From an uncultured bacterium (GTDB lineage: Bacteria; Armatimonadota; UBA5829): a stretch of 64,000 bases of DNA. This document shows, piece by piece, positions 5,154 to 25,838 of the stretch (positions within the stretch are counted from its first letter, which is position 1; the number at the start of each line of letters is the position of its first letter). The DNA lies in the NCBI GenBank assembly GCA_938074205.1, contig CALJES010000004.1:62001-126000 (forward strand), in the 5' to 3' direction. The position numbers and the translations under genes were made by a program. Below the pieces are notes generated by a model. That model was given only the letters and a program-made list of their open reading frames with translations, had not been told where the DNA came from and searched no databases.

Positions 5154-6311
5154 GTGAATAGTTATCCGACACACTCGTCCTTGGCCGTCAAAATACGTCC
5201 AGAAGTCCGCCGCGAGGAATATATAGACTACATGACCTTCCAATCCAATCGGCGGCCTCTTTTTACCGAGCTTTTTGGGCCTCTGGTTGGCCTCAAAGAG
5301 GAGTGGCAAGCCCAGGGTGCATCTCCTGAAGAGCTCGATCTATCGGCGTTCCGATATCGCGCACCGATGCGCGCAAGAATCTCGGTGAATACTGGGTGGA
5401 TAGGCGGAGGGGAAGAGGTTGTCCTGGAGGAAACTGAGGACTATATCATCATCCGAGATCGAATGGGCAGACGTGTGAAGCTTGTCAAAGGCTGCGCTAC
5501 TATCCCACTGCCTTTGGACTACCCTGTGCGAGATTTTAACGACTGGATGAGGATAAAGCATCACTACGAGTACTGCGATGAGCGCTTTCCTGAGGGATGG
5601 GAGCAGGCGGCGTCGGCGCTTATTGCTCAGGGATGGGCGTCGGTTGTCAGTATTCCAGGCGGATTTGATGAGATTCGACAACTGATGGGTGAGGAAAATG
5701 CTTGCCTCGCCTTCTATGACCAGCCGGAACTGGTGCGGGACATATTAGAGACTATGGCAGAGACCTCACTTCGCGTGTTAGATAGGGTTTCCTGCATTGT
5801 TCCAGTAGACGAATTGACCGTACACGAGGATCTCGCGGGCAAGAGCGGTCCACTGATAGGCCCCAAGCAGTTTGACGAGTTCGTGGCGCCTTATTATCGC
5901 CGGGTTTGGGATATGGTTTTCCGGCGGGGTACCAGACTTTTCAGCGTGGATTCGGACGGCAACATTGAACCACTGCTACGTTCGTTTGTTGAAGCCGGGG
6001 TCAACGTAGTCTATCCAATGGAGCCTGCAGCCGGTATGGACGTAGTCAAGGTAAGACGCGAGTTCGGAACACGGCTGGCATTTATGGGAGGTATAGACAA
6101 ACACGTTTTGCGGCGCAGTTGCAGGGAGATAGAGCGCGAGCTCGAATACAAGATACCACCGATGGTGCACACCGGGGGCTGTGTGATTTCCTTGGATCAC
6201 CGCATTCCCAACGGTACTCCTCTAGACAATTACAGATTCTACATAGACAAAGTGTGGGAAATAATCGACCGCGAATCCGTTGCAATACGCAGAAACAACC
6301 CGCCAAGCTGA
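5154..6311 (+). CDS. Uroporphyrinogen decarboxylase (URO-D) family protein
   Basis: TIM-barrel protein of the URO-D/cobamide-methyltransferase superfamily, 385 aa. The C-terminal half has the family's layout: VDELTVHEDLAGKSGPLIGP, a FSVDSDGNIEPLL strand, AFMGGIDKHVL and an MVHTGGCVISLDH segment. These divergent paralogues, common in plant-polymer-degrading bacteria, are usually not haem enzymes; some act as corrinoid methyltransferases and most are unassigned, so no reaction is claimed. The start is GTG at 5154 with GGAG 5 bp upstream. It lies after the encapsulin terminator and converges with the GH2 gene. No other haem gene is nearby. Confidence 0.82.
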   Translation: MNSYPTHSSLAVKIRPEVRREEYIDYMTFQSNRRPLFTELFGPLVGLKEEWQAQGASPEELDLSAFRYRAPMRARISVNTGWIGGGEEVVLEETEDYIIIRDRMGRRVKLVKGCATIPLPLDYPVRDFNDWMRIKHHYEYCDERFPEGWEQAASALIAQGWASVVSIPGGFDEIRQLMGEENACLAFYDQPELVRDILETMAETSLRVLDRVSCIVPVDELTVHEDLAGKSGPLIGPKQFDEFVAPYYRRVWDMVFRRGTRLFSVDSDGNIEPLLRSFVEAGVNVVYPMEPAAGMDVVKVRREFGTRLAFMGGIDKHVLRRSCREIERELEYKIPPMVHTGGCVISLDHRIPNGTPLDNYRFYIDKVWEIIDRESVAIRRNNPPS

Positions 6312-6339
6312 AAGCCAATAGCTCGCCTTGGGATCTTTT

Positions 6340-8838
6340 TCATCTGCCCCATACCTGGATTCTGAGCTGGTTCGCTTGCTCAACGGTCAAGTTGTCTATG
6401 GTTACCTCGTACACTTCTCCAGGGAGCAGGTCGAAATAGTTATCCGACGGTCGAGCTTCCGCAGGCAGGTTGGATAGGGCAACGTTCCTGGCAAAGCCGT
6501 TAGCCGCAATTCTCATCCTGTGGCGTCTTTCATCGACTTGCTCGCGCTCCACAAGCAGCCTTGGCCTTGGAAACTGCATTTCGGCGAAGACAAGAGGAAA
6601 GTAGAAGCTCCGCGCCACAAGCTGTCCTTTCGATTCCAAAACGGCGACTAAGCACTGCCGAGCAGGATTTGAGAATACCTCCGACAGGTCTTCGCTTTCC
6701 CAAAAAGATGCCGATTCGTTCGCAGGCAGTCTTATGCTCAACTCTTGCAGCTTCAGCTCGTTCGTATCGAAGTCAAGAACGCCCACACGCAGTATACCGT
6801 TTACATCTTCAGTTCTGTCGTCGGAAGTCACGTAAACCTGAACAGTGCGCTCGAGCTGTTTGAATGATACGCAAACTGGCGCGCAAGCTCTCTTGGCGTA
6901 GTAATACGCAGGTTTCGGGCGCAAGTAGTAGTCCACCAGGCTCCAACCTATTGCGGGCCAGCAATCGTTGAACATCCAGTAGATTGCGCCTGATATTGCC
7001 CACTTCTCACGCCTAAAATGCTCAATCTCAGACTTTACGAACTCGCCCTGGAGAATGCCGGAGTACGCTGCAAACTCCTCAGCAGATTTGAAATCGCCCA
7101 TCATTCGACGCGTAAGATCGACAAGTATCTGCTGATGCGTCAGTCCATCCGTGCGGCCCGAATGCGGGTTATCCTTGTTATGAAACTCCCAATACTCACC
7201 AGTTGGCGGATACAGCTTATCTTCGGGTATGAACTCCCTGAGCGATTGTATATCGGGCGAACCCTGAGCGTAGAACTCACAGACGAACGGTGCGCGGTCC
7301 TGTTCTATATAATGCCTCCAATTTTTATGGTCGCCGAGGTAAATTCTAAACCAGCTGCCGCCGTGCCAGGTGCCTTCCGATGGATCATTACCGATTCTTC
7401 CGCCGTAAGGAGTAGATGGGCGGTAGGGACGGTCGTGGTCGAGTTTTTTCAAAGCGTTGGGTATAACTTCGTAAAACAAGCGTTTACCGGACCATACATC
7501 ATCCGGTGAATAGTTCATCTCACACTCATTGTTGCCGCACCAGACGGCAATGCAGGGGTGGTTGCGCAGTCTTCTCACAACTGATTCGACTTCTTTGGCA
7601 ACTTGGGCGGCAAATTCGTCTGTGTCAGGATACGTTGCGCACGCAAACATAAAATCCTGCCACACGAGGATGCCCATCTCGTCGCATGCTTTGTAGAACT
7701 CAGGGTGTTCGTATATGCCGCCTCCCCAAACTCGAAGCATGTTGAAGCCAGCGTTTTTTGCTAAACCAACCAGCTCGCGATACCGCTCAGGGGTAACTCG
7801 CGAAACGAAATGGTCGGATGGCACCCAGTTGGCACCCTTGCAGAAAACTTCCTCGCCGTTAACTATCATAGTGAACCGGTTGGAGCCGTCGATGTCGCGC
7901 TCAATGAAGCCGATGTTACGAATACCGAAAGTAGTCTCGGCGACATCCTGAACCTCGCCTTCGTGGCGAACACCAACCAAGCATTTGTATACAGGTTGCT
8001 CGCCGAACCCATTGGGCCACCACAACTGAGGCTGATCGATGCATGCCAAGATCTCTACCACCTCGCCTTCTGGTGGAATTGTCTCAGTAAGCTCAATTCG
8101 CTCAAGTTCTTCACCGAGCGAGATCACAATGTGCAACTCTGCGTTGATAATGCGGCCGGTGTGGTTTGCAAGCTCCACGCTTACCCAGACGCTTGCCGCG
8201 CCTCCTTGCAGCTCAGGCTCAACGTGTACGTCCCTAATGGCAAGCTTGTCCTCCGAGATCAACCTGACGTCACGCCATATGCCTGCTCCCACAAATCGGT
8301 GGGTCCAGTCCCAGCCAAAAGCGCACTGCATCTTTCTTGCATTGACACGCGGAGTATCAAAGCAGCCAGAAAGCTTCCCGTGGTCCATTTTTGCAAGAAC
8401 CCTGACTGCGGGGTCAAACTTGACTGCCAAGAAGTTGATGCCGGCGCGGACGTGTTCCGTAACATCAAATCGGTGAGGGATGAACATGTTATTCGCGCGG
8501 CCTATCGCCTGTCCGTTCAGGAAGATTGTTGCGAATGTATCTAACCCTTCGAACTCTAGGAATGTCTTGGAACGCAGGAAATCCCTTTCGACTTCGAAAC
8601 TTCGGGTGTACCACCACTCTTTTTCCTCGATCCATTGTATGCTGGCTGCGTTGATACCGTAGAAAGGGTCTGGGATTAAGCCCGCGCGATATAATTCAAC
8701 ATGGACCTCGCTGGGAACCTGAGCATCGACGACTATAGCTTCGCATGGCGGAGTTTGGTCTTCAGCGTGTAGCTCCAGACTGCCTGGGTTGCCACCTGTA
8801 AGACTCCAATTTCCGTTCAAAGAAAATATCTGCTTCAT
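6340..8838 (-). CDS. Beta-mannosidase, glycoside hydrolase family 2
   Basis: Predicted exo-acting beta-mannosidase (832 aa) releasing mannose from manno-oligosaccharides or N-glycan cores. Domain order fits GH2: N-terminal jelly roll (LNGNWSLTG, then LEFEGLDTFATIFLNG), immunoglobulin-like domain, TIM barrel, C-terminal beta domains. The acid/base Glu438 is in CGNNECE and the nucleophile Glu521 in VCEFYAQG. No signal peptide is seen, so it is probably cytoplasmic and acts on imported oligosaccharides. The start at 8838 is chosen because CGAGGAGG (8848-8854 region) is correctly placed; the open frame runs 19 codons further upstream without support. A TATAAT at 8966-8961 may be its own -10 box. 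Confidence 0.9.
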   Translation of the reverse strand: MKQIFSLNGNWSLTGGNPGSLELHAEDQTPPCEAIVVDAQVPSEVHVELYRAGLIPDPFYGINAASIQWIEEKEWWYTRSFEVERDFLRSKTFLEFEGLDTFATIFLNGQAIGRANNMFIPHRFDVTEHVRAGINFLAVKFDPAVRVLAKMDHGKLSGCFDTPRVNARKMQCAFGWDWTHRFVGAGIWRDVRLISEDKLAIRDVHVEPELQGGAASVWVSVELANHTGRIINAELHIVISLGEELERIELTETIPPEGEVVEILACIDQPQLWWPNGFGEQPVYKCLVGVRHEGEVQDVAETTFGIRNIGFIERDIDGSNRFTMIVNGEEVFCKGANWVPSDHFVSRVTPERYRELVGLAKNAGFNMLRVWGGGIYEHPEFYKACDEMGILVWQDFMFACATYPDTDEFAAQVAKEVESVVRRLRNHPCIAVWCGNNECEMNYSPDDVWSGKRLFYEVIPNALKKLDHDRPYRPSTPYGGRIGNDPSEGTWHGGSWFRIYLGDHKNWRHYIEQDRAPFVCEFYAQGSPDIQSLREFIPEDKLYPPTGEYWEFHNKDNPHSGRTDGLTHQQILVDLTRRMMGDFKSAEEFAAYSGILQGEFVKSEIEHFRREKWAISGAIYWMFNDCWPAIGWSLVDYYLRPKPAYYYAKRACAPVCVSFKQLERTVQVYVTSDDRTEDVNGILRVGVLDFDTNELKLQELSIRLPANESASFWESEDLSEVFSNPARQCLVAVLESKGQLVARSFYFPLVFAEMQFPRPRLLVEREQVDERRHRMRIAANGFARNVALSNLPAEARPSDNYFDLLPGEVYEVTIDNLTVEQANQLRIQVWGR

Positions 8839-8960
8839 AGCGATTGCCTCCTCGTGCCAACGCAGTAGTATACCTTGCAACCAATCAGACGGCAATCGCG
8901 GCTGGCCTCGTCATAGCGATCGTTCCGATGGTGCTATTCTTTGTCATTTTGCAGAGGCAT

Positions 8961-8966
8961 ATTATA
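8961..8966 (-). promoter_or_regulatory. Candidate -10 box upstream of the beta-mannosidase
   Basis: TATAAT on the minus strand, 123-128 bp before the GH2 start codon, in the 222-bp space between the GH2 and DUF4838 genes. No convincing -35 hexamer is seen at 16-18 bp, so this is a weak prediction. Nothing else recognisable lies in this gap. Confidence 0.4.
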
Positions 8967-9060
8967 CGAGGTCTGACAGCAGGCAGTTTGGTAGGTTAGC
9001 TTCCCGACGAGATGGCGCCCATAACAAGCACGTTTCTCGCCAGCGCAGCTTTTGCCCAAG

Positions 9061-11487
9061 CTAATCGGGCCTTATCGGTAGCCAGTCCTCGCCTGTTGCG
9101 ATCAAGTAAACAGGTCCATGAATACCGCCAGGTCCTAAAGTACTGTTTGCGCGCACGGCGATCGTGTTTTCCTCGCCATATTTGATCCAGGGTTCGCCTG
9201 GAGACTCGAACCCAGGAAACCCCAGCAGCGGATGACGATTGTTCTCGTACCTCGTTCTGCCCGTAGCGTCGAAATAAAATGGCCTGCTCTTGAGATCCAT
9301 TCTGGGCATAGCCGTGGTTCGCACGGATTGTTCCCACACTGGCTTGCCGTTAATATAGATCAGCGCTTCTTCGGACACACCGGAAAACCAAACATAAACG
9401 TGCTTGTAGTTCCGCCAGTCCTGAGGCACAACGAAACGCTGCCTATACCAAGCCACCCCTTTATCGGATTTGGAACCGAGAGCCCAAGCCGAATCATCTA
9501 AGCCTACAGCATACCACTGTTGCGTGGTGCCCAGATCCGACGGGTCGGCCTTGACACGCCAAGCGCTGTCTTCGAGCCTTATTGTTTGCAGGGCATTCTG
9601 AGGAAACGAGAGGGCGTGCTTGAGTTCACTAATCCGTTCAGCGAAATCCGGGCGACCTTCTCGGATGTGTGTCACTTTTTCGATGGTTGCTATGCGTTCG
9701 AACTCTTCTACGAGTGCGCGCAGTCTTTCCCGGTCTGAATTCGCGCGCAGCCGGGGTTGGAAGGCGCCGTAGTAGTCTACGAAACCTATCTCTTGGCTAA
9801 TCTGGGAGTAAAGAACAGGCAATCGGGCAAGATCTACCCTACGTGCGGTCACGGGATCTTTAGCCAGACGCCTTGCTTCCTCCATAAGGCGCAGTGCTTG
9901 GTCCAGATACTGCTGTTTCTGGAGGAAAATGATGTCGGGGTAATAGCGTATCCCGCACATAAGCTGGTTTTGATCGGCTGGCTTCTTATGATTTTGCTCC
10001 CAGATATCCCAGAGCATCATTTGATACTTCCACATAGGTTCCGCTGCCTCGCGGAAGTAACCGAAGACGAAGTCTCGCATCAGATCCTTGGTTTTAAGCG
10101 ACGGATCCCACAGCTTCTTTGCCCAAACCCAGCTCCGCATCGCGGCATTTTCTCCGCCAGGACTTTGATATGCACCCTGGAGCATAATGCCCTTGGCTCC
10201 GTGCTGGATGAGTATCTCAATGTCGCGGTCTACTACCTGCCAGTTTGGCATCGGAACAGGATAATGGTGGAAATTGACCGTGTAATGCCAAATTGTGGTG
10301 TTGGCTCCTATGGCATGCCAACCCTTCATCGCTGATTTGAACTGGTCGGTTTCCAAGACTGTCAGGAACGGGCGCTTCCACGCGTGACGATCGGTGCACA
10401 GCTGCACAACCACGCGTTCGCTGGGTCGAATGTTCTTCGGCGGTTTAACCGTGCCCATATACGCCAGCGTAGATACCTTCACATGCGGAAACTCGTCCTT
10501 TATCGCTTCGGCGACCTTGTTGCAGAAAAGTATCAAGCTAGCAGCTGGCGTACCCTCCGGCAGGTCTATCTTCTTACAGTTCGCGCACTCACAGTAGCCT
10601 GTGCAGTCGTTCTGTGAGATACTTATCAGTTCACAATTCGGGAAGTCGCGAAGCCTAGCCTTTACTTTGTCGATGGTGATTTTGAGAACATCGGGGTTCG
10701 TTAGACAAAGCTGGGTGGCTTTGCGTCGGCCGCCTACAAGTGAGAAGTACTCCGGGTGGTCCTTGAAGTACTGATCTTCCGGAACTAGCCAGTCGAATGA
10801 GTGTCCAAACCATGCGTAGTCTGTGACTCCGCCCCATTCTTCAGGAATCTTCACCAGCGGGGCGTTGGTTCTGTTTCGAAGTGCCCAGTCCGGGTCGAAC
10901 GCGTCCCAGTAAAACGGGTCTCGTATGTCGAGGACAGGCTTGTAAGTCCGCGGCACTATTGCAACCCTCAGGTTTCTCACATGCGGAATGTCCGGATCGT
11001 ACCGGTCGTACCACCTGCAGCCCAGGTCTTCTTCGAGCAGGGCATAGACCGCGTTTATCGGTCCTCGCCGCCTGCCGCCGACCAGAAATAAGTTGACGTT
11101 CTCCTGGAGAATGGCGTAGCCTTCGTCGCCCAGGTCAGGCAGGTTCCTAGAGCCGAGCAGTTTCGTGTGACCTATGCTGATGAATGGCGTGCCGGGCCTT
11201 AGCTGACTTTCTCGAACTATAGGTAACTCAGCGGAAGTCATTTCGTGAAGCCACTGAGCCAGCTCCTCAGCCGCCTTCGTCTCCTGCGATGAGGGCTGGT
11301 TCGGTACGACTATCACATACTCAGTCTGCCCATCATGCGCAAGCGTGATTACAGGTCCCGGCTTGCCCTTGGGTTTGAGAGCATTCCGCCAGCTTGATCC
11401 CGCGAGCGCAGAGGCAATAGAGTTCTGCTGGGACAAAGCTAAAGTTACAACAATAAAGTGTACGAATGCGACAGGTCGATTAGCCAA
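9061..11487 (-). CDS. Exported DUF4838 family glycan-acting protein
   Basis: Protein of 808 aa with an N-terminal hydrophobic signal segment (about residues 7-25). An alpha-glucuronidase N-terminal-like domain follows (AAEELAQWLHEMTSAELPIV, then ISIGHTKLL), then the DUF4838 barrel with WFGHSFDWLVP and a CTGYCECANC cluster. The C-terminus is a GH2-like jelly roll (YRQRFVVPQDW, then LIYINGKPVWEQ). DUF4838 proteins are relatives of retaining hexosaminidase/glucuronidase barrels, but the substrate is unknown. The start is TTG at 11487 behind GGAGGTGA. It lies 58 bp after the sulfatase gene on the same strand, so the two are likely co-transcribed and act on the same sulfated or acidic glycan. Confidence 0.83.
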   Translation of the reverse strand: MANRPVAFVHFIVVTLALSQQNSIASALAGSSWRNALKPKGKPGPVITLAHDGQTEYVIVVPNQPSSQETKAAEELAQWLHEMTSAELPIVRESQLRPGTPFISIGHTKLLGSRNLPDLGDEGYAILQENVNLFLVGGRRRGPINAVYALLEEDLGCRWYDRYDPDIPHVRNLRVAIVPRTYKPVLDIRDPFYWDAFDPDWALRNRTNAPLVKIPEEWGGVTDYAWFGHSFDWLVPEDQYFKDHPEYFSLVGGRRKATQLCLTNPDVLKITIDKVKARLRDFPNCELISISQNDCTGYCECANCKKIDLPEGTPAASLILFCNKVAEAIKDEFPHVKVSTLAYMGTVKPPKNIRPSERVVVQLCTDRHAWKRPFLTVLETDQFKSAMKGWHAIGANTTIWHYTVNFHHYPVPMPNWQVVDRDIEILIQHGAKGIMLQGAYQSPGGENAAMRSWVWAKKLWDPSLKTKDLMRDFVFGYFREAAEPMWKYQMMLWDIWEQNHKKPADQNQLMCGIRYYPDIIFLQKQQYLDQALRLMEEARRLAKDPVTARRVDLARLPVLYSQISQEIGFVDYYGAFQPRLRANSDRERLRALVEEFERIATIEKVTHIREGRPDFAERISELKHALSFPQNALQTIRLEDSAWRVKADPSDLGTTQQWYAVGLDDSAWALGSKSDKGVAWYRQRFVVPQDWRNYKHVYVWFSGVSEEALIYINGKPVWEQSVRTTAMPRMDLKSRPFYFDATGRTRYENNRHPLLGFPGFESPGEPWIKYGEENTIAVRANSTLGPGGIHGPVYLIATGEDWLPIRPD

Positions 11488-16375: not shown

Positions 16376-18094
16376 TTGCTTATCTTGGTGCTAATTATCC
16401 CCAGTTTTTCGAATGCCGGCGAGGATATCTTTCTTAGAGATCGCCTCGGCAGGCCGCTTGCACCTGCACAGATCGACAGGGTGAGCATTCGACAGACCTG
16501 TGGAGACTGCCACGACGTAGACCAGTCAGCGCGATCTCTGCATTTCAATAAATCTGAACCAGCTCCAGATCCAGAAGCTAGCGATTGCCTCTCTTGCCAC
16601 CTTCCGAAAAAGAACGCTTTCGCACCTAATGGAATGCTCACGAAGACCGTCGCTCTGAAATCGGCCCAGAGCTGCATAGATTGTCACTCCGACGTGGCTG
16701 ACGAAGTTGCCCAAAGCCCCCACGGACGCCCGGACAAACGCGCAGGTGATCATCCTACGTGTGTCACTTGTCACGGTGGCAACCCTCACGATATCCAGCC
16801 GATTTCGGCCCTTAGTCGTAAGTCCAAGGTTGAGCTGTGCAGCTCTTGTCACTCGCGGCTGGAGCTGATGAGCAGATATCAGTTGAGTTCAGATGCAGTT
16901 TCCTCATACGAGCAGAGTTTCCACGGCAAAGCTTTCATTCGGTTCGGAAAGCAGAACTCGGCCGTGTGTACAGACTGCCACGAATACCACGGCGTGCTGG
17001 ATCTGAGAAAACAAGACGCTGGGCGATTAGTTAAGGTGTGTACGCAGTGCCACCCCAGAGCGGGAGAGAGCTTTGCGGTCTCGGGAGCGAGTCATTTGCG
17101 CCTTAGGATTGAGAGGTCTCTCTTACTTAGGCTTGAAGACCTCTTTTTCAAGGCGCTTACGCTGGGAGTGATGTTACTTCTTTTGGGAATAGTGGCTTTA
17201 GATCTGAGAAGAAAAGCTCTCAGCAGAAACTATATTCCGAAATCTGGACGGGCAATTGCTCTGCTCGTGGCGGCAAGCTTCTGTTGCATGGTCGCCGGGA
17301 TAGCTATGGCAATCTTTGGTATCAGGGGAGCTGAATGGGCTTGGTTGGCAGCCGTTGGTCTGATAATATCTGCATTCGTTTCTTGGGTTGCTCAGCGGGA
17401 ACCGACAAAGAAGCAAGAACGGGTCTATCAACGGTTCAACCTTACATTCCGCGCTCAGCACTTCTGCCTGATGATAAGCTTCACGGTGCTCGTTCTGACG
17501 GGAATGCCGCTAAAGTTCGCGCACGTGGGATGGTCGCACTATCTTCACATACTCTTCGGCGGATTTGACGGCGCGCGCATTGCTCACAGGGTTGCAGCGG
17601 TCATACTAACGTGTACATGGGTATGGCACGGATTTTATCTTCTCTATCTTTGGTGGAAAGCAGGATTTAGCTTTAAGTCTTGGACTATGTGGCCTACTAA
17701 ACAGGACTTTATCGATTTTTTCCAGACTATCAAGTTCGGCTTTGGTTTATGCCCTGAACCGCCCAAATACGGCCGCTTTAACTGGAAAGAAAAGTTCGAC
17801 TACTTTGCAGTTTACTGGGGAATGCCGATAATGGTTGTTTCCGGATTGGTACTGTGGTTCCCCGTGTACTTCGGAAACCGTCTAACCGATCTCGGAATCG
17901 CCGTGGCCTACATTGCGCACAGCGACGAAGCCCTGTTGGCATTCTTGGCCATCCTAATGTGGCACCTTTATAATACTCACTTTGATCCGGATCACTTCCC
18001 GATGAGCTCCGTGTGGTATTCAGGAGTGCTGACCGAATCCGAGATGGAGCGTGAACATCCGCTAGAGAAAGCGCAGATTGACGGAAGTAGCTGA
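16376..18094 (+). CDS. Seven-haem cytochrome c fused to a membrane cytochrome b
   Basis: Respiratory electron carrier. After a signal sequence come seven CxxCH sites (CGDCH, CLSCH, CIDCH, CVTCH, CSSCH, CTDCH, CTQCH), spread over about 200 residues with extra His residues (SLHF, SPHG, SFHG) that can be distal ligands. The second half has about seven hydrophobic helices like cytochrome b561 or formate dehydrogenase gamma subunits, with likely haem ligands in RAQHF, AHRV, VWHGF and MWHLYNTHF. It probably moves electrons between quinol and periplasmic acceptors. No partner reductase is adjacent. The first standard start is TTG at 16376, but this leaves a signal peptide without basic residues; an AUC at 16355 behind GGGAGGT (16340-16346) fits better. 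See findings. Confidence 0.85.
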   Translation: MLILVLIIPSFSNAGEDIFLRDRLGRPLAPAQIDRVSIRQTCGDCHDVDQSARSLHFNKSEPAPDPEASDCLSCHLPKKNAFAPNGMLTKTVALKSAQSCIDCHSDVADEVAQSPHGRPDKRAGDHPTCVTCHGGNPHDIQPISALSRKSKVELCSSCHSRLELMSRYQLSSDAVSSYEQSFHGKAFIRFGKQNSAVCTDCHEYHGVLDLRKQDAGRLVKVCTQCHPRAGESFAVSGASHLRLRIERSLLLRLEDLFFKALTLGVMLLLLGIVALDLRRKALSRNYIPKSGRAIALLVAASFCCMVAGIAMAIFGIRGAEWAWLAAVGLIISAFVSWVAQREPTKKQERVYQRFNLTFRAQHFCLMISFTVLVLTGMPLKFAHVGWSHYLHILFGGFDGARIAHRVAAVILTCTWVWHGFYLLYLWWKAGFSFKSWTMWPTKQDFIDFFQTIKFGFGLCPEPPKYGRFNWKEKFDYFAVYWGMPIMVVSGLVLWFPVYFGNRLTDLGIAVAYIAHSDEALLAFLAILMWHLYNTHFDPDHFPMSSVWYSGVLTESEMEREHPLEKAQIDGSS

Positions 18095-18215: not shown

Positions 18216-19265
18216 CTATCTGGGCCACCTGAGATGAACGGGAAGCATCTCAGGAAACGCAGTGTGTGGCTCAATTTGGTACCAATATGCCACAGATGCT
18301 ATGTCGTCCTGAAGCGGCTGAAACTTGCCGTTTGGCCACCATCCGAGTGCTTGTATAGTTACCTTGATATCTTTCTCGAAGCGGATTGGATCGAGGATGT
18401 GCCATCTGTAGAGGCCGTGCTTCGGCACCTCGCCCTCGTTCTTTACCCATAGCGGATAGCCTAGGAAAGCTGTGGAATAAGTATCTCCAAAACCCCATGC
18501 CCCGCAGAAATAGTCTTCGGTGCCGGTACCGCATATGGTGGGATATTCGTCGTCGCCATCCAGGAAGAACTTGATCTCACCTTCGCCCCACCAGCCGTTA
18601 GACAGCTGAGTCCACGCTAGGTAGGTTCCAACATAGTGTCCTCTTCCTTTGACTCCGTCCAAAATAACGTGCTCAGGGCGTTCGATCTTCGTAACAGCTC
18701 GGCGCCATTGGGCATGGAAATATGCAAGTCCTTCGGGCACGTCGTCGAGTTCGTAGTCGATCTGGTAGAAGAAACCGTGAATGTCCTGGTGCCACTGATT
18801 TTCGATCTCTATGCGTGCGGACTTCAAAAATGGCATGGGCCAATACGAATTGAATCCTCCGGATGGGTTAACTGCTATTGGGATCGAATTTACTTTTGTT
18901 CTGAGAGCGTGTCCGCAACAGAAGAAATCGCCAAGAGGAACCTCTACCGAAGGGGCCTTCTCGCCATCCCAATACATTCGTAAAATGCAGTTTCTGTAGG
19001 CGACCTCAGCTACAGTGATCCAGATATGCCTAATGGTGCCAGGGCCCTCGATCTCAGCAAGCGTAGTATTGGAATTCGCGGGCAGGGTGATACAGGGTCG
19101 TATTTTCCAACCTTTCCCCAGCATAGATCCGGGGTTATGCTCGTCCGGCTCGGCTTGCGCGCCCGCGCCTTTTTCTCCTTTAGGATTCTCCGCTGAAATG
19201 CTCCGAGTCTTGCCGCTAGTGACCTTTGCCACGTTTGAAAGAAATCCGGTGTCAAAGAAACCCAT
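18216..19265 (-). CDS. DUF2961 / glycoside hydrolase family 172 protein
   Basis: Protein of 349 aa in the family that includes difructose-anhydride-forming and alpha-arabinofuranosidase/fructofuranosidase enzymes. Family landmarks are ITLPANSNTTLAEIEGPGTIRHIWIT (broken here by short gaps), EVPLGDFFCCGH and the TGTEDYFCGAWGF catalytic-region motif. There is no signal peptide, so it is probably cytoplasmic. GGGAGGT lies 8 bp before the ATG at 19265. It stands divergent from the PadR gene and convergent with the cytochrome, alone in its transcription unit. The sugar specificity cannot be deduced. Confidence 0.87.
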   Translation of the reverse strand: MGFFDTGFLSNVAKVTSGKTRSISAENPKGEKGAGAQAEPDEHNPGSMLGKGWKIRPCITLPANSNTTLAEIEGPGTIRHIWITVAEVAYRNCILRMYWDGEKAPSVEVPLGDFFCCGHALRTKVNSIPIAVNPSGGFNSYWPMPFLKSARIEIENQWHQDIHGFFYQIDYELDDVPEGLAYFHAQWRRAVTKIERPEHVILDGVKGRGHYVGTYLAWTQLSNGWWGEGEIKFFLDGDDEYPTICGTGTEDYFCGAWGFGDTYSTAFLGYPLWVKNEGEVPKHGLYRWHILDPIRFEKDIKVTIQALGWWPNGKFQPLQDDIASVAYWYQIEPHTAFPEMLPVHLRWPR

Positions 19266-19417
19266 TACAAACTACCTCCCAGAATCGCATTACGTTTTTT
19301 CGCTGAACGGACGTGGGTTCAATGTACCACTGGCCACGTGCGAAGTCAACGCCTTTTTCGCTGGCAAGTTACTGCGCAAATATTTTTTGCATGTTTGAAA
19401 TGCTGAATAATATGTGG

Positions 19418-19444
19418 TATATATATAAGTGTAAGAAACACTTA
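19418..19444 (+). promoter_or_regulatory. Promoter -10 and palindromic operator of the PadR gene
   Basis: TGGTATATA (19415-19423) reads as an extended -10 element. Immediately after it, TAAGTGT (19426-19432) and ACACTTA (19438-19444) form a perfect 7-bp inverted repeat with a 5-bp spacer, ending at the AGGAG ribosome-binding site. Such a site over the transcription start is the usual position for PadR autorepression (inference). Confidence 0.6.
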
Positions 19445-19452
19445 GGAGCACT

Positions 19453-19848
19453 GTGGAATTGACCAGGCGATATTGTCACCGGCATGGCTATGGCGGGATC
19501 CCGTGCTCATGCAGCATGGGAAAGCTCTCTCGCCTAATTGAGCCGGTTGTGTTGTTGGCAATAAGAGATAACCCGGACATACACGGTTATCAGCTGGCAA
19601 GCGAGATAGAAAAACTCGCGATGACGGATTCCGAAATGGAGCCTGGAGCTATATACAGGACTCTGAGACAGCTGGAAGACGCTGGGATGGTTTCTTCTCG
19701 TTGGGACACGACCGCTAACGGTCCCGCGCGCAGGTGTTATCGTCTGACTGAGGAAGGCCTGCGGCACCTTGATGATTGGGCTGCGTTGATAGAAAAGCGT
19801 CGCTCCGAAATGGAGAGGTTTCTCAGGGCCTATAGGGGCGAGGAATAA
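19453..19848 (+). CDS. PadR-family transcriptional regulator with Cys/His N-terminus
   Basis: Winged-helix repressor, 131 aa. The PadR core runs from about residue 24 (LIEPVVLLAI) through HGYQLASEI, GAIYRTLRQLEDAGMV and the wing ARRCYRLTEEG; the short C-terminal helix should dimerise. Ahead of it is an unusual CHRHGYGGIPCSC stretch (residues 8-20) that could bind a metal or Fe-S cluster. The start is GTG at 19453 behind AGGAG (19444-19448). The inverted repeat at 19426-19444 and a matching half-site in front of the next gene suggest it controls itself and the DUF5320-NifX pair. A redox or metal sensor role is an inference. Confidence 0.88.
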   Translation: MELTRRYCHRHGYGGIPCSCSMGKLSRLIEPVVLLAIRDNPDIHGYQLASEIEKLAMTDSEMEPGAIYRTLRQLEDAGMVSSRWDTTANGPARRCYRLTEEGLRHLDDWAALIEKRRSEMERFLRAYRGEE

Positions 19849-19925
19849 TAGAGCACCGCAACAGACAGATAGTAAAGTGTTCCAGTACGGGCATTAATTA
19901 TATGCAACTAGCACTTATCAGTAGA

Positions 19926-19934
19926 AAACACTAA
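19926..19934 (+). promoter_or_regulatory. Second PadR-like half-site before the DUF5320 gene
   Basis: AAACACTAA at 19926-19934 matches the right arm AAACACTTA of the PadR-gene operator in eight of nine bases and likewise sits just before the ribosome-binding site. An opposing AGTGTT (19876-19881) pairs with AACACT (19927-19932) across 45 bp. This could be a looped or two-site operator. Confidence 0.45.
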
Positions 19935-19948
19935 ATGGAGGTGAGCGT

Positions 19949-20254
19949 ATGAGATGCAGAAACATGTGTCACCTTACTGGACTCCCGGGCTGGATGAGGT
20001 TTGGCTACAGTCCGGGATGGGTAGGACTGACTCCCAGCGGACTAGGTCCTTGCGCGCAGTATTTGCTGACCGGCCAATGGCCGTTCGCCCAAGGTCAGTT
20101 TCTGACTAGCCCGTGGCCAGCTAGCGCCGGCGTGTGGCCCGGTGATGATCCAAAAACTAGGCTGGAATTCTTGAAGAGGCAGGCTGAGTTTCTTAAGCAA
20201 CAACTGGAAGCTGTCAAGGCTCAGATTGCAAGCCTTGAGGAGAAAGAACAGTGA
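19949..20254 (+). CDS. DUF5320-like small protein
   Basis: 101 aa. The N-terminal half is rich in Gly, Pro and Trp and has Cys at positions 3, 7 and about 35. The C-terminal half (about 68-101) is a heptad-type coiled coil (LEFLKRQAEFLKQQLEAVK) followed by charged residues. Proteins of this design (DUF5320) are found next to NifX/NifB-type metal-cluster proteins in anaerobes; their role is unknown. The ATG follows a strong TGGAGGTGAG. Its TGA overlaps the GTG of the next gene by 4 bp, so the two are translationally coupled. Confidence 0.75.
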   Translation: MRCRNMCHLTGLPGWMRFGYSPGWVGLTPSGLGPCAQYLLTGQWPFAQGQFLTSPWPASAGVWPGDDPKTRLEFLKRQAEFLKQQLEAVKAQIASLEEKEQ

Positions 20255-20718
20255 AGATAGCATTGTGTTCTTCGGGAGCAACATTGGATTCGCCGATGGA
20301 CCCCGGGCTTGGCGGGTGTCGATACTTTGTGTTGGTTGACACGGATACGCTCGACACTGCTGCTGAGCCGAATCTTTCTGCCCAAGCGGACCGGGGAGCT
20401 GGCGTTGTGGCAGCGCAGCATCTAGCTACTAAGGGGGTACAAGCCGTCTTGACCGGCAACATAGGACCTAACGCGTTCCGAGTGCTTGACGCGGCGGGCA
20501 TTGCAGTGTACACGTGCGCTGCCCAAACAGTGCGTGATGCAGTGGAGCAGTTCAAATCGGGGGAACTTACCCAGATCAACGCTGCCACAGCGGGACCGCA
20601 TTTCGGAACAACTGTGACCGGATTGGGTCGCGGTATAAGTCTGAGTGGAGGCCGTGGAAGGAGACGTGGCCTCAGGAGGGGCGGCGGATGCCGCGGCGCG
20701 GGGAGCTCTGGCGGCTAA
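20251..20718 (+). CDS. NifX/NifB-type dinitrogenase iron-molybdenum cofactor-binding domain protein
   Basis: 155 aa of the MTH1175/NifX-like fold, which binds Fe-S or Fe-Mo-S precursor clusters. The domain covers roughly residues 1-115: MKIALCSSGATLDSPMDP, a central GAGVVAAQHLATKGVQAVLTG strand-helix and AAGIAVYTC. The C-terminal 40 residues are Gly/Arg-rich (GGRGRRRGLRRGGG) and end GCRGAGSSGG, a low-complexity tail common in this group. No nif structural genes are in the window, so nitrogen fixation is not implied. The start is GTG at 20251. It probably works with the DUF5320 protein under PadR control. Confidence 0.85.
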   Translation: MKIALCSSGATLDSPMDPGLGGCRYFVLVDTDTLDTAAEPNLSAQADRGAGVVAAQHLATKGVQAVLTGNIGPNAFRVLDAAGIAVYTCAAQTVRDAVEQFKSGELTQINAATAGPHFGTTVTGLGRGISLSGGRGRRRGLRRGGGCRGAGSSGG

Positions 20719-21092
20719 TAGAGGCCGTTGGGGGTAAAACACACTAGGCATATATATGCGACTGGCCCACTGGACAGTGAGCGATAACACGTCCTCGAAT
20801 GGACGGCGCAGTTTCCCAGGGATTTCCCAGGATGGATCATCGGACTCGGGTGCTACCGAGAACGACGCAAAACACCGAACAGGCAAGGGCCAGCGCTTCC
20901 TCAATAGCTGAACACGCGTGGCGTTAACCTCGTTATTGCCGAGTATTAGACCACGTGTGGCGCAGTAGGAATCCCAACACGTCGAACAGTCCGGCTCCGG
21001 ATATATTACCCTCAGCCTTGTCTTGACTTACCTGCACGGCATGTATAGGATTATGCTGTTCTGTAATCTGTTCTTCGTTAGGCCCCGTAGTT
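20719..21092. other. Intergenic region, 374 bp, no gene seen
   Basis: No supported coding sequence. It contains a 12-bp palindrome GCATATATATGC (20748-20759), a 5-bp inverted repeat CACTGGACAGTG (20768-20779), a short tandem duplication of TTTCCCAGGGA (20812-20833) and, near the end, a good promoter for the next gene. A 160-codon minus-strand open frame here is mostly antisense to the NifX gene and was not accepted. Confidence 0.6.
21023..21051 (+). promoter_or_regulatory. Sigma-70-type promoter of the spermidine synthase gene
   Basis: TTGACT at 21023-21028, a 17-bp spacer and TAGGAT at 21046-21051. The start codon lies 42 bp downstream. Spacing and the -35 match are good; the -10 differs from consensus at two positions. 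Confidence 0.6.
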
Positions 21093-22775
21093 ATGGAAAT
21101 GGGAGTTAGGCATCGGTCTTCTTGGTCGGCTAATATCGTTCTCCTGTGGGTCTTGGCGTTTTTCACCGGTTGGTTCGTGATGCAGACTGAGCTTGTAGGA
21201 GCCAGGGCCCTAACGCCCTATTTTGGGAACTCGATTTTCGTGTGGGGCAGCGTGATTGCGGTATTTCTGCTTGCCCTGGCGCTGGGTTATGGTGCTGGGG
21301 GAAGACTAACACGTCGCTACTCATCGCACTGGGTGCCCACCCTAGTTCTTGCTGCGGCGGGAGGTCTGGTAGCAGCAACGGTTGCGTATGAAGGCAAACT
21401 AAACACCTTCCTTGCGTCGACTCAAATCGACGTGCGTTGGGGAACGCTGTTAGCTTCCATACTTCTTTACGCGCCGGCAATGGTTCTGTCGGGAATGATA
21501 GCACCGTATCTCGTACATCTGGCCACATCGGCGCGTTCTGAAGCGGGCAGTCGAGCCGGAACATTGTATGCGGTGTCGACCGTAGGTAGTTTTGCCGGAA
21601 GTCTGGTCACCGCATTTGTGCTCATTCCAGCTTACTCTCTCAGCGGCGTCGCGCTTGGAGGAGGCCTTGTTGCGGCTGCTGCGGGCGTGGTATGCGCCAT
21701 TGCCTCGTCACTGCAACAAACGAGGGGCGCGTTTGTCAGCATCGCTTTTGCCGCATTGTGTCTTGTGCTCGTGTTACACACGCCTCAAAGATTTGTTTCG
21801 AGCCAACAGGATGTCTACCAACAGACTTTGATCGGTAAGCGTTTGAGCAACGATCCTACCTCCACCCTGGCACAGTGTCTGGCTGAGGGTCAGCGGCTGG
21901 CAAAATCCGAACTCAAAAAGTACGCGGGCAAGCCCGGAAACCACATTTTGCTTAACATCGAAACGCCCTACCAGCGTGTGCAGGTGGCTCAGGAAGGCGA
22001 TATTCGCTTGCTTACATTCGGAGAGGCTGGGCACAAGATGCCGCAGACTTCCATGAATCTGCGCGACATCACACATCATTCAACGGAATACACTGGCTTG
22101 TTGTTGGCGCCGATTCTATATAAACCCAATGCAAAGCGCATGTTGATAATCGGCCTGGGTGGAGGTGATGTGGCACGCGGTATTGAAACGTGCTATCCTG
22201 AAATCAGCATGGATGTTGTAGAAATCGATCCGGCCGTAGTTTCCATCGCGCAGAAGTACTTTTTCTGGAGGCCGAGTCTAAACGTGGTAGTATATACAAT
22301 GGACGGCAGATCGTTTGTGAATACTCAGATTGCACGCAAACAGCCGCCCTACGATTGGATAATACTGGATGCTTTCGATGATCAATTCGTGCCTTTCTAC
22401 ATGACTAAGCTCGAGTTTTACTCAGTACTTCAGCGCGCACTTACCTCGGACGGCGTGCTTGCGGTGAACACGTGGATAAATCATGATCTTTACAGCTATC
22501 AAGCACGCACTCTACAAAAAGTGTTTCCGCACGTCGATGCTTACTTCGGGCACAGGTCGGGCAACGTTATTTTGGTTGCTCAAAACAACACCAAAGCGCC
22601 TATGACTCCGGTGCGTGCACTGCAGGCTCGCAAGAGTGTCAAGCTTCCGCCGGGAGCCGCTGTCGACTTGAAATACATCACGTCGTGCCTGCTCAGGAGC
22701 CCTAACTGGAATCCCAAGGTAGACATCCTTACGGATACCTGGGCCCCGGTTGAGAGGCTTCTGACCATAAGCTAG
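21093..22775 (+). CDS. Membrane-fused spermidine synthase family protein
   Basis: Protein of 560 aa with a multi-helix membrane half (about 15-235, some seven segments, beginning ANIVLLWVLAFFTGWFV and with the MQTELVGARALTPYFG motif of fused MFS/spermidine synthases). A soluble aminopropyltransferase-like domain (about 290-510) follows. The methyltransferase-type motif LIIGLGGGD (about 351-359), VVEIDP and LDAFDDQF are visible; the last replaces the usual catalytic DAFxxxxxP region in modified form. Whether it makes polyamine or modifies another substrate is unknown. A promoter is seen at 21023-21051. It is followed 34 bp later by a deacetylase and a GT4, so a cell-envelope role is possible. 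Confidence 0.85.
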   Translation: MEMGVRHRSSWSANIVLLWVLAFFTGWFVMQTELVGARALTPYFGNSIFVWGSVIAVFLLALALGYGAGGRLTRRYSSHWVPTLVLAAAGGLVAATVAYEGKLNTFLASTQIDVRWGTLLASILLYAPAMVLSGMIAPYLVHLATSARSEAGSRAGTLYAVSTVGSFAGSLVTAFVLIPAYSLSGVALGGGLVAAAAGVVCAIASSLQQTRGAFVSIAFAALCLVLVLHTPQRFVSSQQDVYQQTLIGKRLSNDPTSTLAQCLAEGQRLAKSELKKYAGKPGNHILLNIETPYQRVQVAQEGDIRLLTFGEAGHKMPQTSMNLRDITHHSTEYTGLLLAPILYKPNAKRMLIIGLGGGDVARGIETCYPEISMDVVEIDPAVVSIAQKYFFWRPSLNVVVYTMDGRSFVNTQIARKQPPYDWIILDAFDDQFVPFYMTKLEFYSVLQRALTSDGVLAVNTWINHDLYSYQARTLQKVFPHVDAYFGHRSGNVILVAQNNTKAPMTPVRALQARKSVKLPPGAAVDLKYITSCLLRSPNWNPKVDILTDTWAPVERLLTIS

Positions 22776-22809
22776 CACTTTGTAAAACCCAGGAGACGCA
22801 ATCGGGTAT

Positions 22810-23580
22810 ATGTGGTCACTCAGAAAAGTACACGGTGAGGCGAAAAGACCGTGTAGCACCGTCGTGCTTCTTTATCATAGGATTGGAATGCCGAGGCTAT
22901 CTTCACTGGTGACGGGTCAGTATGTTCTTCCTCGCTTCTTTCGGGCGCAATTGGACTACCTTGTGTATCGCGGCTGGAATTCAACTACCCTGTCGGCGGT
23001 GGTAGAGCAGCTGGCAAAAGCGCACCATTTGGATTGCAATAATTTCGCGGTTACTTTTGACGACGCGTACCTTGGCGTGTACGACCACGCTTGCCCTGCC
23101 TTGGCCGATCGAGGTATGACCGCTACTGTGTTCGTTGTGGTGGACCGAATCGGAGGGGTGAACGAGTGGGACAGTGCTGTAGGCGACGTGCGGGAGCCCA
23201 TAATGAGTGAGGGCCAAATAAAAGAGATCGCCGAGTTGGGCTTTGAGATAGGCTCTCATAGCTTAACCCATCCGCATCTGGTAGCGCTTAGTGACAGCGA
23301 TCTTCGGCAAGAGGTGTCTGATTCCAAGAAGAAGCTGGAAGACATCATAGGCAAGCAGGTCTCAGCATTTTCGTACCCCTACGGCGAATACGATAGACGA
23401 GTGCTGGACGCTGTAGCGGAAGCAGGGTACGAGTATGCCGTTGTAACAAAGCTGGGAACAGTGCGAAACGACACCAGCCCCTTCGAAATTCCTCGAGTCA
23501 ACATTCGCTGGAACACTGTCGGCAGGCTTCTGATGCGCAAGATACGACGAGCCGAAAGAACACGGCGAATACGCAAATGA
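22810..23580 (+). CDS. Polysaccharide deacetylase (NodB domain)
   Basis: Zn-dependent CE4-type deacetylase, 256 aa. The NodB motifs are visible as TFDDAY (motif 1, with the Asp pair), SHSLTHPHL (motif 2, zinc His residues) and a YPYGEYD segment (motif 3-like); an N-terminal VVLLYHRIG strand is typical of the XynD/PgaB-like group. No signal peptide is present, so it may act on a lipid-linked or cytoplasmic sugar intermediate. The stop overlaps the next gene's start as ATGA, indicating coupling to the GT4 glycosyltransferase. Confidence 0.9.
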   Translation: MWSLRKVHGEAKRPCSTVVLLYHRIGMPRLSSLVTGQYVLPRFFRAQLDYLVYRGWNSTTLSAVVEQLAKAHHLDCNNFAVTFDDAYLGVYDHACPALADRGMTATVFVVVDRIGGVNEWDSAVGDVREPIMSEGQIKEIAELGFEIGSHSLTHPHLVALSDSDLRQEVSDSKKKLEDIIGKQVSAFSYPYGEYDRRVLDAVAEAGYEYAVVTKLGTVRNDTSPFEIPRVNIRWNTVGRLLMRKIRRAERTRRIRK

Positions 23581-24653
23581 GTCCTCCCAAGGTACTGGAA
23601 GCGATCACCCCGTCGCGAATCGGCGGCGCAGAAGTGTTAGTTGCAAATCTCTGTGCGCAGTTTGCTAGGCTGGGAGTGCGCGTAGAGCTCTGGTGCCCGA
23701 AGGGTCGCCCTTTTGAAGCCTACGCCCGTGCGAGAGGGCTAGCTTGCCGAACATGGAGGACGTTTGGTAAGTTGGACCCGCTCACTGTAGTGCGTTTGGC
23801 AAGGCTAGTTAAGCGAGGTAGCTTTAACGTATTGCACACACATCTCTCAACTGCCAGTCTTCTCGGCGCCTTGGCTGCGCGGCTGGCTGCGAAAACATCG
23901 GTCTCGCACGTACACGGGCTCAACACCGCTACTTGTTTTAAGTATTCCTCGCGAATTATTGCTGTTTCGGATGCTGTCCGCAGGCACTTGGAGTCTCAAG
24001 GCATATCGGCGCAAAAGATACAGGTGGTTCACAACGGAGTGGATGTCACGGAATACCAACCAATCGATTCGGACATAGCTAAGAGCAGCTTCGGATACAT
24101 GCCTTCTGTGCCTCTTTTTGGAGTTTTCGGACGCCTTGCCCCTGAGAAGGGTCAAAGGGTGGCCATCGAAGCAATGTTCTTGGTGCAGGAGGATTTTCCG
24201 GAAGCTCGTCTGGTGATAGCAGGAGACGGTCCTGAGCGCGAGAGCCTGGAGGCGTGCGCCAGGGTGCTAGGCGTGGCTGACCGTGTTGACTTCGCCGGCT
24301 TTGTAGCAGATGTTCGCGGGCTCATGTGTGCGTGCGACGTTGTTATCGTGCCCTCTCTGAAAGAGGGCTTTGGTCTTGCAGCCGTCGAAGCTATGGCACT
24401 TAAGCGACCGGTGGTGGCAAGCGCCACCGGTGGCTTGCCAGAGGTAGTTGTGCAGGGCGAGACGGGAATCCTAGTTGCGCCTGAGGATCCGAAAGCGCTC
24501 GCTCAAGCCCTTCTTGACCTTGCTCGAGACAGCGACATGCGCGCCCGCCTGGGAAATAACGGCCGCCACCGAGTGGAGGAACACTTTAACCTCTCGAGGC
24601 AAAGCGAGAGGATTTTGGAGATACTCACTGGAACTCCCATCGGAGGCGGCTAG
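23577..24653 (+). CDS. Glycosyltransferase family 4
   Basis: Retaining GT-B glycosyltransferase, 358 aa. The N-terminal acceptor domain contains GGAEVLVANLC; the C-terminal nucleotide-sugar domain has FGRLAPEKGQ, VIAGDGPER and the EX7E motif in EGFGLAAVEAM. It resembles the GT4 enzymes of capsule and lipopolysaccharide assembly. It overlaps the deacetylase gene by 4 bp and is the last gene of this unit; the next gene is convergent and begins 18 bp after its stop. The sugar donor and acceptor cannot be predicted. Confidence 0.92.
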   Translation: MSPPKVLEAITPSRIGGAEVLVANLCAQFARLGVRVELWCPKGRPFEAYARARGLACRTWRTFGKLDPLTVVRLARLVKRGSFNVLHTHLSTASLLGALAARLAAKTSVSHVHGLNTATCFKYSSRIIAVSDAVRRHLESQGISAQKIQVVHNGVDVTEYQPIDSDIAKSSFGYMPSVPLFGVFGRLAPEKGQRVAIEAMFLVQEDFPEARLVIAGDGPERESLEACARVLGVADRVDFAGFVADVRGLMCACDVVIVPSLKEGFGLAAVEAMALKRPVVASATGGLPEVVVQGETGILVAPEDPKALAQALLDLARDSDMRARLGNNGRHRVEEHFNLSRQSERILEILTGTPIGGG

Positions 24654-24671
24654 GTATTTTAAGCCGTTCTA

Positions 24672-25838
24672 TCAGCGCTTTCTTGCTGCTTCGGCGATGA
24701 GACCTCGTCCTATTTCGTCGCGCTGAATCTGATTCGTTCCCTCGTAGATTTGGGTAATCTTGGCATCACGCATCATTTTTTCGACTGGGTACTCCTTCAT
24801 ATATCCGTACCCGCCGAACACCTGAACGGCGTCTGTTGTTACCTGCATTGCTACGTCTGAGGCGTAGCATTTAGCCATTGCTGAGTACGCGGTTATCTTT
24901 TCGTCGGGATTCGAATCTATCCAACGGGCAACCGAGTAAACTAGTGCGCGCGCCGACTCCACCTTCATCGCCATGTCCGCAAGCATAAATCGCAGGCCCT
25001 GATGTGCTGAAATGGGCTGACCGAACTGTACTCTTTCCCTGGAATAGTTCACAGCAAGCTCCAAAGCGCCTGCAGCTATGCCGACGGCTTGTGCAGCCAC
25101 TCCGGGTCGAGAAAGGTCGAACGTCTTCATAGCAGTGATGAACCCGGTGCCGCGCTTGCCAAGCATGTTTTCTTTGGGTACCCGGCAGTCCTGGAAGATG
25201 AGCTCGCGTGTTGCTGAGGCTCGAATGCCCATCTTGTTTTCCTTCTTGCCGAATGTGAAGCCTTCTGTGCCTTTTTCAACCACAAAACAGGAGAATCCGC
25301 GCGGACCGCGCTCCGGATCTGTTAACGTAAACACCGTATAGATCTCTGCTTCGCCGCCGTTAGTTATCCATTGCTTAGTGCCATTAATTACGAAGTAGTC
25401 GCCGTCTTCCACCGCTCGGGTTTGCACCGCCGCCGCGTCCGAACCGGCGTTCGGCTCAGTTAGGGCAAACGCGGCAAGCGAGGCTCCGTCGGCAATTCGC
25501 GGAAGCCAACGTTGTTTTTGTTCCTCCGTACCCGCTATCAAGATCGGGAATGCCCCCAACCCTGTCGCCGCGAATGCCAATGCAATCCCTGCATCGACTT
25601 TCGACAACTCCTCGGTGACCACACACATATTCATAATTGGAGTGCCATTGTCCATGCCGCCGTACTGCTCAGGGATGAATACGCGGAAAAGGTCAGCCTC
25701 TGCCATGGCTTGCACTTCCGGCCATGGGAACTCACCAGTTTCATCGTAATATGCGCTTACGGGTCGGAAGCGCTTTTCAGCTAGCTCATGTGCGACTTCC
25801 TTCATAAACTGCTGTTCTTCGGTAAGGAAGTAATCCAT
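24672..25838 (-). CDS. Acyl-CoA dehydrogenase
   Basis: FAD enzyme introducing a trans-2 double bond into acyl-CoA, 388 aa, the usual length for the soluble tetrameric group. Signatures seen: AALTEPNAGSD-type FAD/substrate motif (FALTEPNAGSDAA), QWITNGG, the QVFGGYGYMKEYPVEKMMRD region and IYEGTNQIQR with the catalytic Glu366. It could be a short-chain (butyryl-CoA type) enzyme, but chain length is not readable. AGGAGGCAT precedes the ATG at 25838. No electron-transfer flavoprotein or other beta-oxidation gene is adjacent. Confidence 0.94.
   Translation of the reverse strand: MDYFLTEEQQFMKEVAHELAEKRFRPVSAYYDETGEFPWPEVQAMAEADLFRVFIPEQYGGMDNGTPIMNMCVVTEELSKVDAGIALAFAATGLGAFPILIAGTEEQKQRWLPRIADGASLAAFALTEPNAGSDAAAVQTRAVEDGDYFVINGTKQWITNGGEAEIYTVFTLTDPERGPRGFSCFVVEKGTEGFTFGKKENKMGIRASATRELIFQDCRVPKENMLGKRGTGFITAMKTFDLSRPGVAAQAVGIAAGALELAVNYSRERVQFGQPISAHQGLRFMLADMAMKVESARALVYSVARWIDSNPDEKITAYSAMAKCYASDVAMQVTTDAVQVFGGYGYMKEYPVEKMMRDAKITQIYEGTNQIQRDEIGRGLIAEAARKR

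Follow-up and report, generated by a model that had tools for sequence, protein, structure and literature searches.

A PadR-family regulator with a cysteine/histidine N-terminus and recurrent predicted operators beside IssA-like genes in Armatimonadota

What might a PadR-family regulator with an N-terminal cysteine/histidine extension control, and to what might it respond, when its gene stands beside genes for a DUF5320-like protein and a putative NifX in a bacterium with no detectable nitrogenase? The locus in question lies within a 64,000-nucleotide stretch of DNA (the window) from an Armatimonadota genome of 3.02 Mb that is 97.9% complete (G000). Three genes are found here in tandem:

padR, 19453–19848, plus strand: PadR-family winged-helix regulator with an N-terminal C8-x2-H11-x6-C18-x-C20 extension.
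DUF5320-like gene, 19949–20254, plus strand: 101 amino acids, with an N-terminus of its own type and a C-terminal stretch matching DUF5320.
PF02579 gene, 20251–20718, plus strand: 155 amino acids, with an IssA/MTH1175-like domain and a 40-residue Gly/Arg-rich tail.

The start of padR is ambiguous (GTG at 19453, or TTG at 19459 as in the sister species). The second and third frames share the four bases GTGA (20251–20254), bearing out the coupling described in a first-pass annotation of this DNA. The cluster is flanked by a divergent DUF2961 gene (18216–19265) and by a fused MFS/spermidine-synthase-type gene (21093–22775); upstream of the former, positions 16376–18094 encode a multihaem cytochrome c region fused to a cytochrome b561-like domain. 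That annotation also held that nitrogenase is absent, and the PF00148 profile indeed has no matches in the genome, while matching in four of 14 control genomes. With no PF00148 component detected, the reading as a NifX belonging to a nitrogenase system was rejected.

The non-coding DNA around padR contains the following features, no strand being assigned to the palindromes:

Putative padR promoter, 19395–19423, plus strand: -35 TTGAAA (19395–19400), 17-nt spacer with TG, -10 TATATA (19418–19423).
Predicted operator O1, 19426–19444: TAAGTGTAAGAAACACTTA, adjoining the -10 and lying over the expected transcription start; leave-one-out score 22.6–22.7; kept upstream of padR in relatives.
Predicted operator O2, 19899–19917: TATATGCAACTAGCACTTA, between padR and the DUF5320-like gene; score 19.2–19.3.
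Half-site, 19926–19934, plus strand: AAACACTAA, flanking O2, its core ACACTAA (19928–19934) conserved in the sister species G002.

The perfect repeat TAAGTGT-N5-ACACTTA previously noted over the likely padR transcription start coincides with O1. It occurs once in the window and in none of 100 shuffles, and the genome holds no other perfect copy and none with one mismatch. When two mismatches are allowed the dyad is found at four places in all, compared with seven for the control, and the other three places are thus background. The sequence earlier said to recur before the DUF5320 gene, AAACACTAA, is present, but as a half-site only. It was rejected as the second operator in favour of the 19-bp palindrome O2, which fits better and is conserved, the sister species carrying TATGTGTGATTAGCACTTA at this position.

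The O1 dyad is a member of a wider palindrome, TANRTG-N7-CAYNTA, and dyads of like layout were recurrent upstream of padR when 30 loci were inspected. A symmetric matrix was built from 13 sites and applied with the scored locus always left out and a threshold of at least 15 bits. Matches were found in 33 of 35 PadR neighbourhoods (33 genomes), the total of 54 matches comparing with 0.8 expected from ten dinucleotide shuffles per locus; within the 64-kb window the matrix matches exactly twice, at O1 and O2. Among held-out loci, from 27 genomes unused before, 29 of 30 have a match. This set comprised ten new-genome loci and 20 others (all further new-genome matches down to 137.0 bits), and the test is not fully independent, as some genera are shared with the training or first set (for example, G118 with G070, and G289/G290 with G097). 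Conservation of the repeat in relatives had been chosen beforehand as a test capable of refuting the regulatory reading, and the repeat is conserved in both samplings. The half-site profile from 96 sites in 65 loci is T (94%), A (94%), T/G/A, A/G, T (99%), G (100%), T (74%), and the 83 sites outside the training set give a nearly identical one. In the window's own genome, the degenerate pattern TANRTGYN5RCAYNTA occurs at three places (O1, O2 and C13:2063), its reversed control at none.

The position of the sites is also recurrent. Of the 65 loci, 51 carry a site no more than 260 bp upstream of padR; a second one follows the padR stop by 30–58 bp in 21 of them, as it does in the window. One locus has the post-padR site only, ten have no site directly upstream of padR and carry one elsewhere (before a PF02579 or DUF5320 gene, for example), and three (L122, L126 and L161) have no site on the stretch that was fetched. 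Promoter-like sequences were scored in 20 padR-first loci; the first set has 23 with a site upstream, of which L103, L112 and L113 were omitted because their site is farther away. In 15 of the 20, the -10 of the best promoter-like pair begins 5–8 nt before the operator; the mean score is 10.15 versus 7.2 for shuffled sequence, and scores of at least 10 are seen in 14 loci versus 0.8% of shuffles. In the window this pair reads TTGAAA-17-TATATA, scores lower (9.5 in the same scoring) and was not listed by a stricter promoter scan; its counterpart at that position in the sister species is TTGACA-17-TATACA. An operator next to the -10 fits repression, which is the likely mode of action here, rather than activation.

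How closely is the regulator tied to its neighbours? A contig search with the single window PadR recovered nothing beyond the sister species and an ordinary PadR without an operator (L003). When 291 Armatimonadota genomes were searched with a profile, 86 gave a PadR match at E ≤ 1e-15, the survey being confined to this phylum. One PadR (L123, at locus L029) fell outside the automatic PadR cluster and was counted by hand. Across 101 genomes, a PF02579 gene lies within 6 kb of 26 of the 30 PadRs scoring at least 98 bits, of two of the five scoring 60–98 bits and of none of the 68 lower-scoring ones; a DUF5320 gene lies within the same distance of 14 of the 30 orthologues, one of the five intermediates and none of the 68 other PadRs. 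The four high-scoring exceptions are G019, which has no PF02579 in its genome and a DUF5320 gene 105 bp from padR, G011, where PF02579 is 11 kb away, and G062 and G094, where it is on other contigs. The L124 and L125 PadRs have the upstream site and no PF02579 gene on the contig.

The same operator is found at loci away from padR. In genomes with an orthologue, six of eight such trans PF02579/DUF5320 loci (L056, L065, L066, L069, L071 and L079, the exceptions being L053 and L076) have a site within 700 bp upstream, compared with none of eight in six genomes without an orthologue, three of which loci (L086, L088 and L089) are below the Pfam cut-off; the list was compiled once the motif was known. 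Three further loci on padR contigs (L035, L059 and L070) all have sites and were excluded from the trans count. The predicted operators, their position and the tie between regulator and target genes, like the Cys/His conservation described below, are established by comparative sequence analysis, and on this evidence the regulatory circuit by itself is very probably real.

Of the two presumed target proteins, the smaller matches DUF5320 over its C-terminal half (profile positions 50–99) at 25.9 bits, below the Pfam cut-off of 27, although a relative in G020 clears it at 32.2 bits; the N-terminus is of a different, conserved type (RxRNMxxxTGLPG..RFGYSPGW..GLGPCAQ), which qualifies the earlier DUF5320 assignment. 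This protein belongs to cluster 7, present in five loci. The larger protein contains a PF02579/IPR003731 domain (70.6 bits against a Pfam cut-off of 26.3) and its best solved-structure match is MTH1175 (E 1.9e-16), which is placed in the IssA clade in the portion of PMC5524996 available. It was first called 'NifX-like', but IssA/MTH1175-like is the better description given the structure match and the Gly/Arg-rich tail. This 40-residue tail contains eight K/R, no D/E and 15 G, and similar tails are found in several PF02579 proteins of related islands, others having no tail. Where its relatives have DPRFGRC the window protein has DPGLGGC, and it may thus have lost part of the usual site.

The islands of relatives also encode Mrp/NUBPL ATPases (PF10609, 305 bits), NifU_N (124 bits) and radical SAM proteins, together with metallo-beta-lactamase-fold (MBL) and ferredoxin-type ATPase proteins. 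We therefore read the operon as one for Fe–S or metal-sulfide handling; its exact activity, like the function of the PF02579 protein, is inferred, in the latter case from homology.

The best explanation of the locus, and a probable one, is that of an autoregulated PadR operon in which the regulator represses IssA-like Fe–S/metal-sulfide genes and perhaps answers to a metal-linked signal. According to this scheme a PadR dimer would bind the 19-bp palindrome (half-site TANRTGT) at O1, over its own transcription start, and again at O2, before the DUF5320-like/PF02579 pair, blocking RNA polymerase and so repressing both transcripts. The derepressing signal would most likely be Fe–S or another metal sulfide, read via the N-terminal C-x2-H-x(4-8)-C-x-C. 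Once released, the operon would supply the small DUF5320-like protein and the IssA-like protein, and the latter may bind or store anionic Fe–S/metal-sulfide material by means of its PF02579 domain and cationic Gly/Arg tail. The operator recurs beside relatives of this PadR throughout Armatimonadota, which suggests a control circuit not yet described. The use that bacteria without nitrogenase make of NifX/IssA-like proteins is poorly understood, and DUF5320 still lacks a function; a defined operator offers a handle, predicting members of the system that include genes on other contigs, and the ligand of the regulator would reveal what the system responds to.

Several known systems resemble parts of this arrangement. 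LmrR and the autoregulated PadR-s2 regulators are likewise small winged-helix proteins with a C-terminal helix; LmrR acts through inverted repeats to repress both itself and the neighbouring lmrCD operon, and published PadR operators are ATGT/ACAT inverted repeats 8–10 bp apart (PMC3506622 and PMC5428041, in the parts available). The half-sites described here, RTGT/ACAY, resemble these, although the spacer is 5 bp, and in comparison with LmrR as there described a PF02579/DUF5320 operon takes the place of the drug pump and the regulator carries a Cys/His extension. IssA of Pyrococcus furiosus (PF2025) and the IssX clade share the IPR003731/PF02579 domain and a cationic Gly-rich tail, and IssA expression follows sulfur in P. 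furiosus (PMC5524996, from the same portion); the tail here differs from that account in having about 40 rather than 70 residues and in being Arg/Gly-rich with almost no aromatics. The ORP complex and MrpORP of Desulfovibrio similarly link PF02579 proteins to Mrp/NBP35 and ferredoxin-type proteins, but their operons are under sigma-54 control (PMC6345978, in extract), whereas here there is a PadR with its own predicted operator, and the window itself lacks the ATPases. An Mrp/NBP35 ATPase–PF02579 fusion adjoining padR at L097:4471–5691 reproduces the MrpORP arrangement outside Desulfovibrio. In the open-licence PMC literature, as far as it could be searched, no paper came up that links a PadR with PF02579, DUF5320 or Fe–S genes.

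The best NCBIfam match of the window PadR is PhaQ, a PHB-responsive PadR repressor (TIGR02719), at 75.8 bits, but the family cut-off is 139.35 and membership was rejected. A plasmid search gave only distant PadRs, the best being of PhaQ type with 38% identity. As these matches begin at residue 23 or 27, the Cys/His extension falls outside the likeness. IscR, an autoregulated winged-helix repressor of Fe–S genes that belongs to the Rrf2 family, carries a 3Cys-1His cluster. Here the comparison is limited to how the two might work; the IscR ligands lie in another part of the protein, and a cluster in the window PadR is hypothetical.

What, then, of the extension itself? The PadR product matches PF03551 at 63.7 bits (Pfam cut-off 27) over residues 35–106, and the stretch CHRHGYGGIPCSC (residues 8–20) is N-terminal to the winged helix, as first reported. 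In an AlphaFold2 model built from two sequences, the winged helix spans residues 26–127, with helices and strands from residue 26 onwards, and residues 100–127 form a predicted dimerisation helix (pLDDT ~90 over most of its length); residues 1–27 have pLDDT below 50, leaving the N-terminus undefined and the model uninformative on a metal site. Conservation of the Cys/His residues was the other test fixed in advance as potentially refuting. In a scripted alignment of 29 PadR orthologues that includes the window protein, C8 is conserved in 24, H11 in 27, C18 in 26 and C20 in 25, and the surrounding segment is more variable in length and at its other positions.

Most lineages thus retain these residues, though some lack them. 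Among the 30 PadR matches of at least 98 bits, 23 have CxxH...CxC, three CxC only and four neither in full, and all five matches at 60–98 bits lack it; in the second sampling of 30 loci the full motif is present in 18, CxC only in four and neither in eight. Every one of the proteins without the full motif (seven of the 30 first-set orthologues and 12 of the 30 held-out loci) keeps its operator site. PadRs with no N-terminal Cys/His motif of any kind (L118 in G090, L119 in G049, and L178–L183) have very good upstream operators, and those of L118 and L119 also adjoin PF02579 islands. The motif is evidently unnecessary for DNA recognition, and it may not be the sensor. That the N-terminus senses the signal and that its ligand is a metal or Fe–S cluster is a weaker proposal than the circuit, plausible yet short of likely. 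Its boldest form, in which the PadR would bind an Fe–S cluster or iron via a new N-terminal 3Cys-1His site and govern a phylum-wide regulon for Fe–S/metal-sulfide storage and delivery, is doubtful, though it would imply an iron–sulfur sensor built independently of IscR and a new sensor type for the PadR family, perhaps one that reads the stored IssA-like material in the way that PhaQ reportedly senses the polymer PHB.

A competing reading, itself somewhat less than likely, keeps the circuit as proposed and makes the motif a structural zinc site or a thiol redox switch in a PadR that responds to redox state or a small molecule. The four candidate ligands (C, H, C, C) would serve for zinc as well as for a 3Cys-1His cluster, lineages without the motif retain the operator, and LmrR, a PadR, binds drugs (PMC5428041, again in part). 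The wealth of Fe–S handling genes in the target islands of relatives nevertheless favours a related signal, as supposed in the metal-linked reading.

The locus had also been described as a self-contained module. That description is not supported: the fuller form is a larger island with ferredoxin-ATPases, Mrp and IscU, of which the window has a cut-down set of three genes. One feature marks the difference from the sister species:

Junction with the extra DNA of G002, 20672–21143, no strand assigned: 3.26 kb in G002 versus 0.47 kb in the window.

On either side, window positions 19388–20671 and 21144–25555 align by blastn with 1309–2586 and 5844–10254 of the G002 locus (L093). The downstream flank is the same in both, but the interval that separates the PF02579 gene from the spermidine-synthase-type gene is about 2.8 kb longer in G002. 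The extra DNA contains two frames for ferredoxin-type ATPases, a second PF02579 gene, a small DUF5320 of canonical type and a broken radical-SAM/MBL frame. The last (L093:3947–4312) starts radical-SAM-like and ends MBL-like, apparently at a deletion junction, and contains no domain recognised by Pfam. The large island is also present in relatives farther removed, so that loss in the window lineage is likelier than gain in G002. An orthologue of the G002 ATPase is missing from the window's own genome (the best match, 25.7 bits, covers the ferredoxin motif only), which does encode IscU (173 bits) and Mrp-like proteins of modest score (best 56.6 bits). In a genome of the same genus (G001, 67% complete and with no PF02579 match), only a padR-like fragment with in-frame stops is seen (L131:6636–6755, on G001:C5).

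Could the locus then be a decaying remnant, its island enzymes gone and its regulator and operators persisting for a target that no longer works? The additional genes at the corresponding place in the sister species, the absence of an orthologue of its ATPase from the window's genome, the loss of DPRFGRC and the padR-like fragment of G001 all lean that way, but the three window frames are intact and conserved relative to the sister species, with dN/dS values of 0.03 (padR), 0.12 (DUF5320-like) and 0.18 (PF02579) beside 0.07 for the flanking gene (dS being near saturation), and the PF02579 tail is still cationic; we consider decay improbable. Least probable by far is that the palindrome is another regulator's site or a 5′ RNA hairpin with PadR a mere neighbour, for although it lies near the expected transcription start and a transcript could include part of it, the sites track the PadR orthologue (33/35 and 29/30 loci, and 6/8 versus 0/8 for trans genes), their half-sites resemble the published PadR motif, and the site adjoins the -10 in 15 of 20 loci, so that transcripts would often lack its first half.

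A few further matches were encountered. The third occurrence of the degenerate pattern in the window's own genome is at G000:C13:2063–2081, and G085, which has no PadR orthologue, contains two copies of TAAGTGTAATTGACATTTA (C378:9888 and 14975) that match the same pattern. A strong operator (score 18.4) at L098:7424–7442 precedes by 70 bp a gene whose product is probably a membrane protein (L098:6905–7372); a relative of this protein is also encoded near padR in L105, and the regulon may thus include a transporter.
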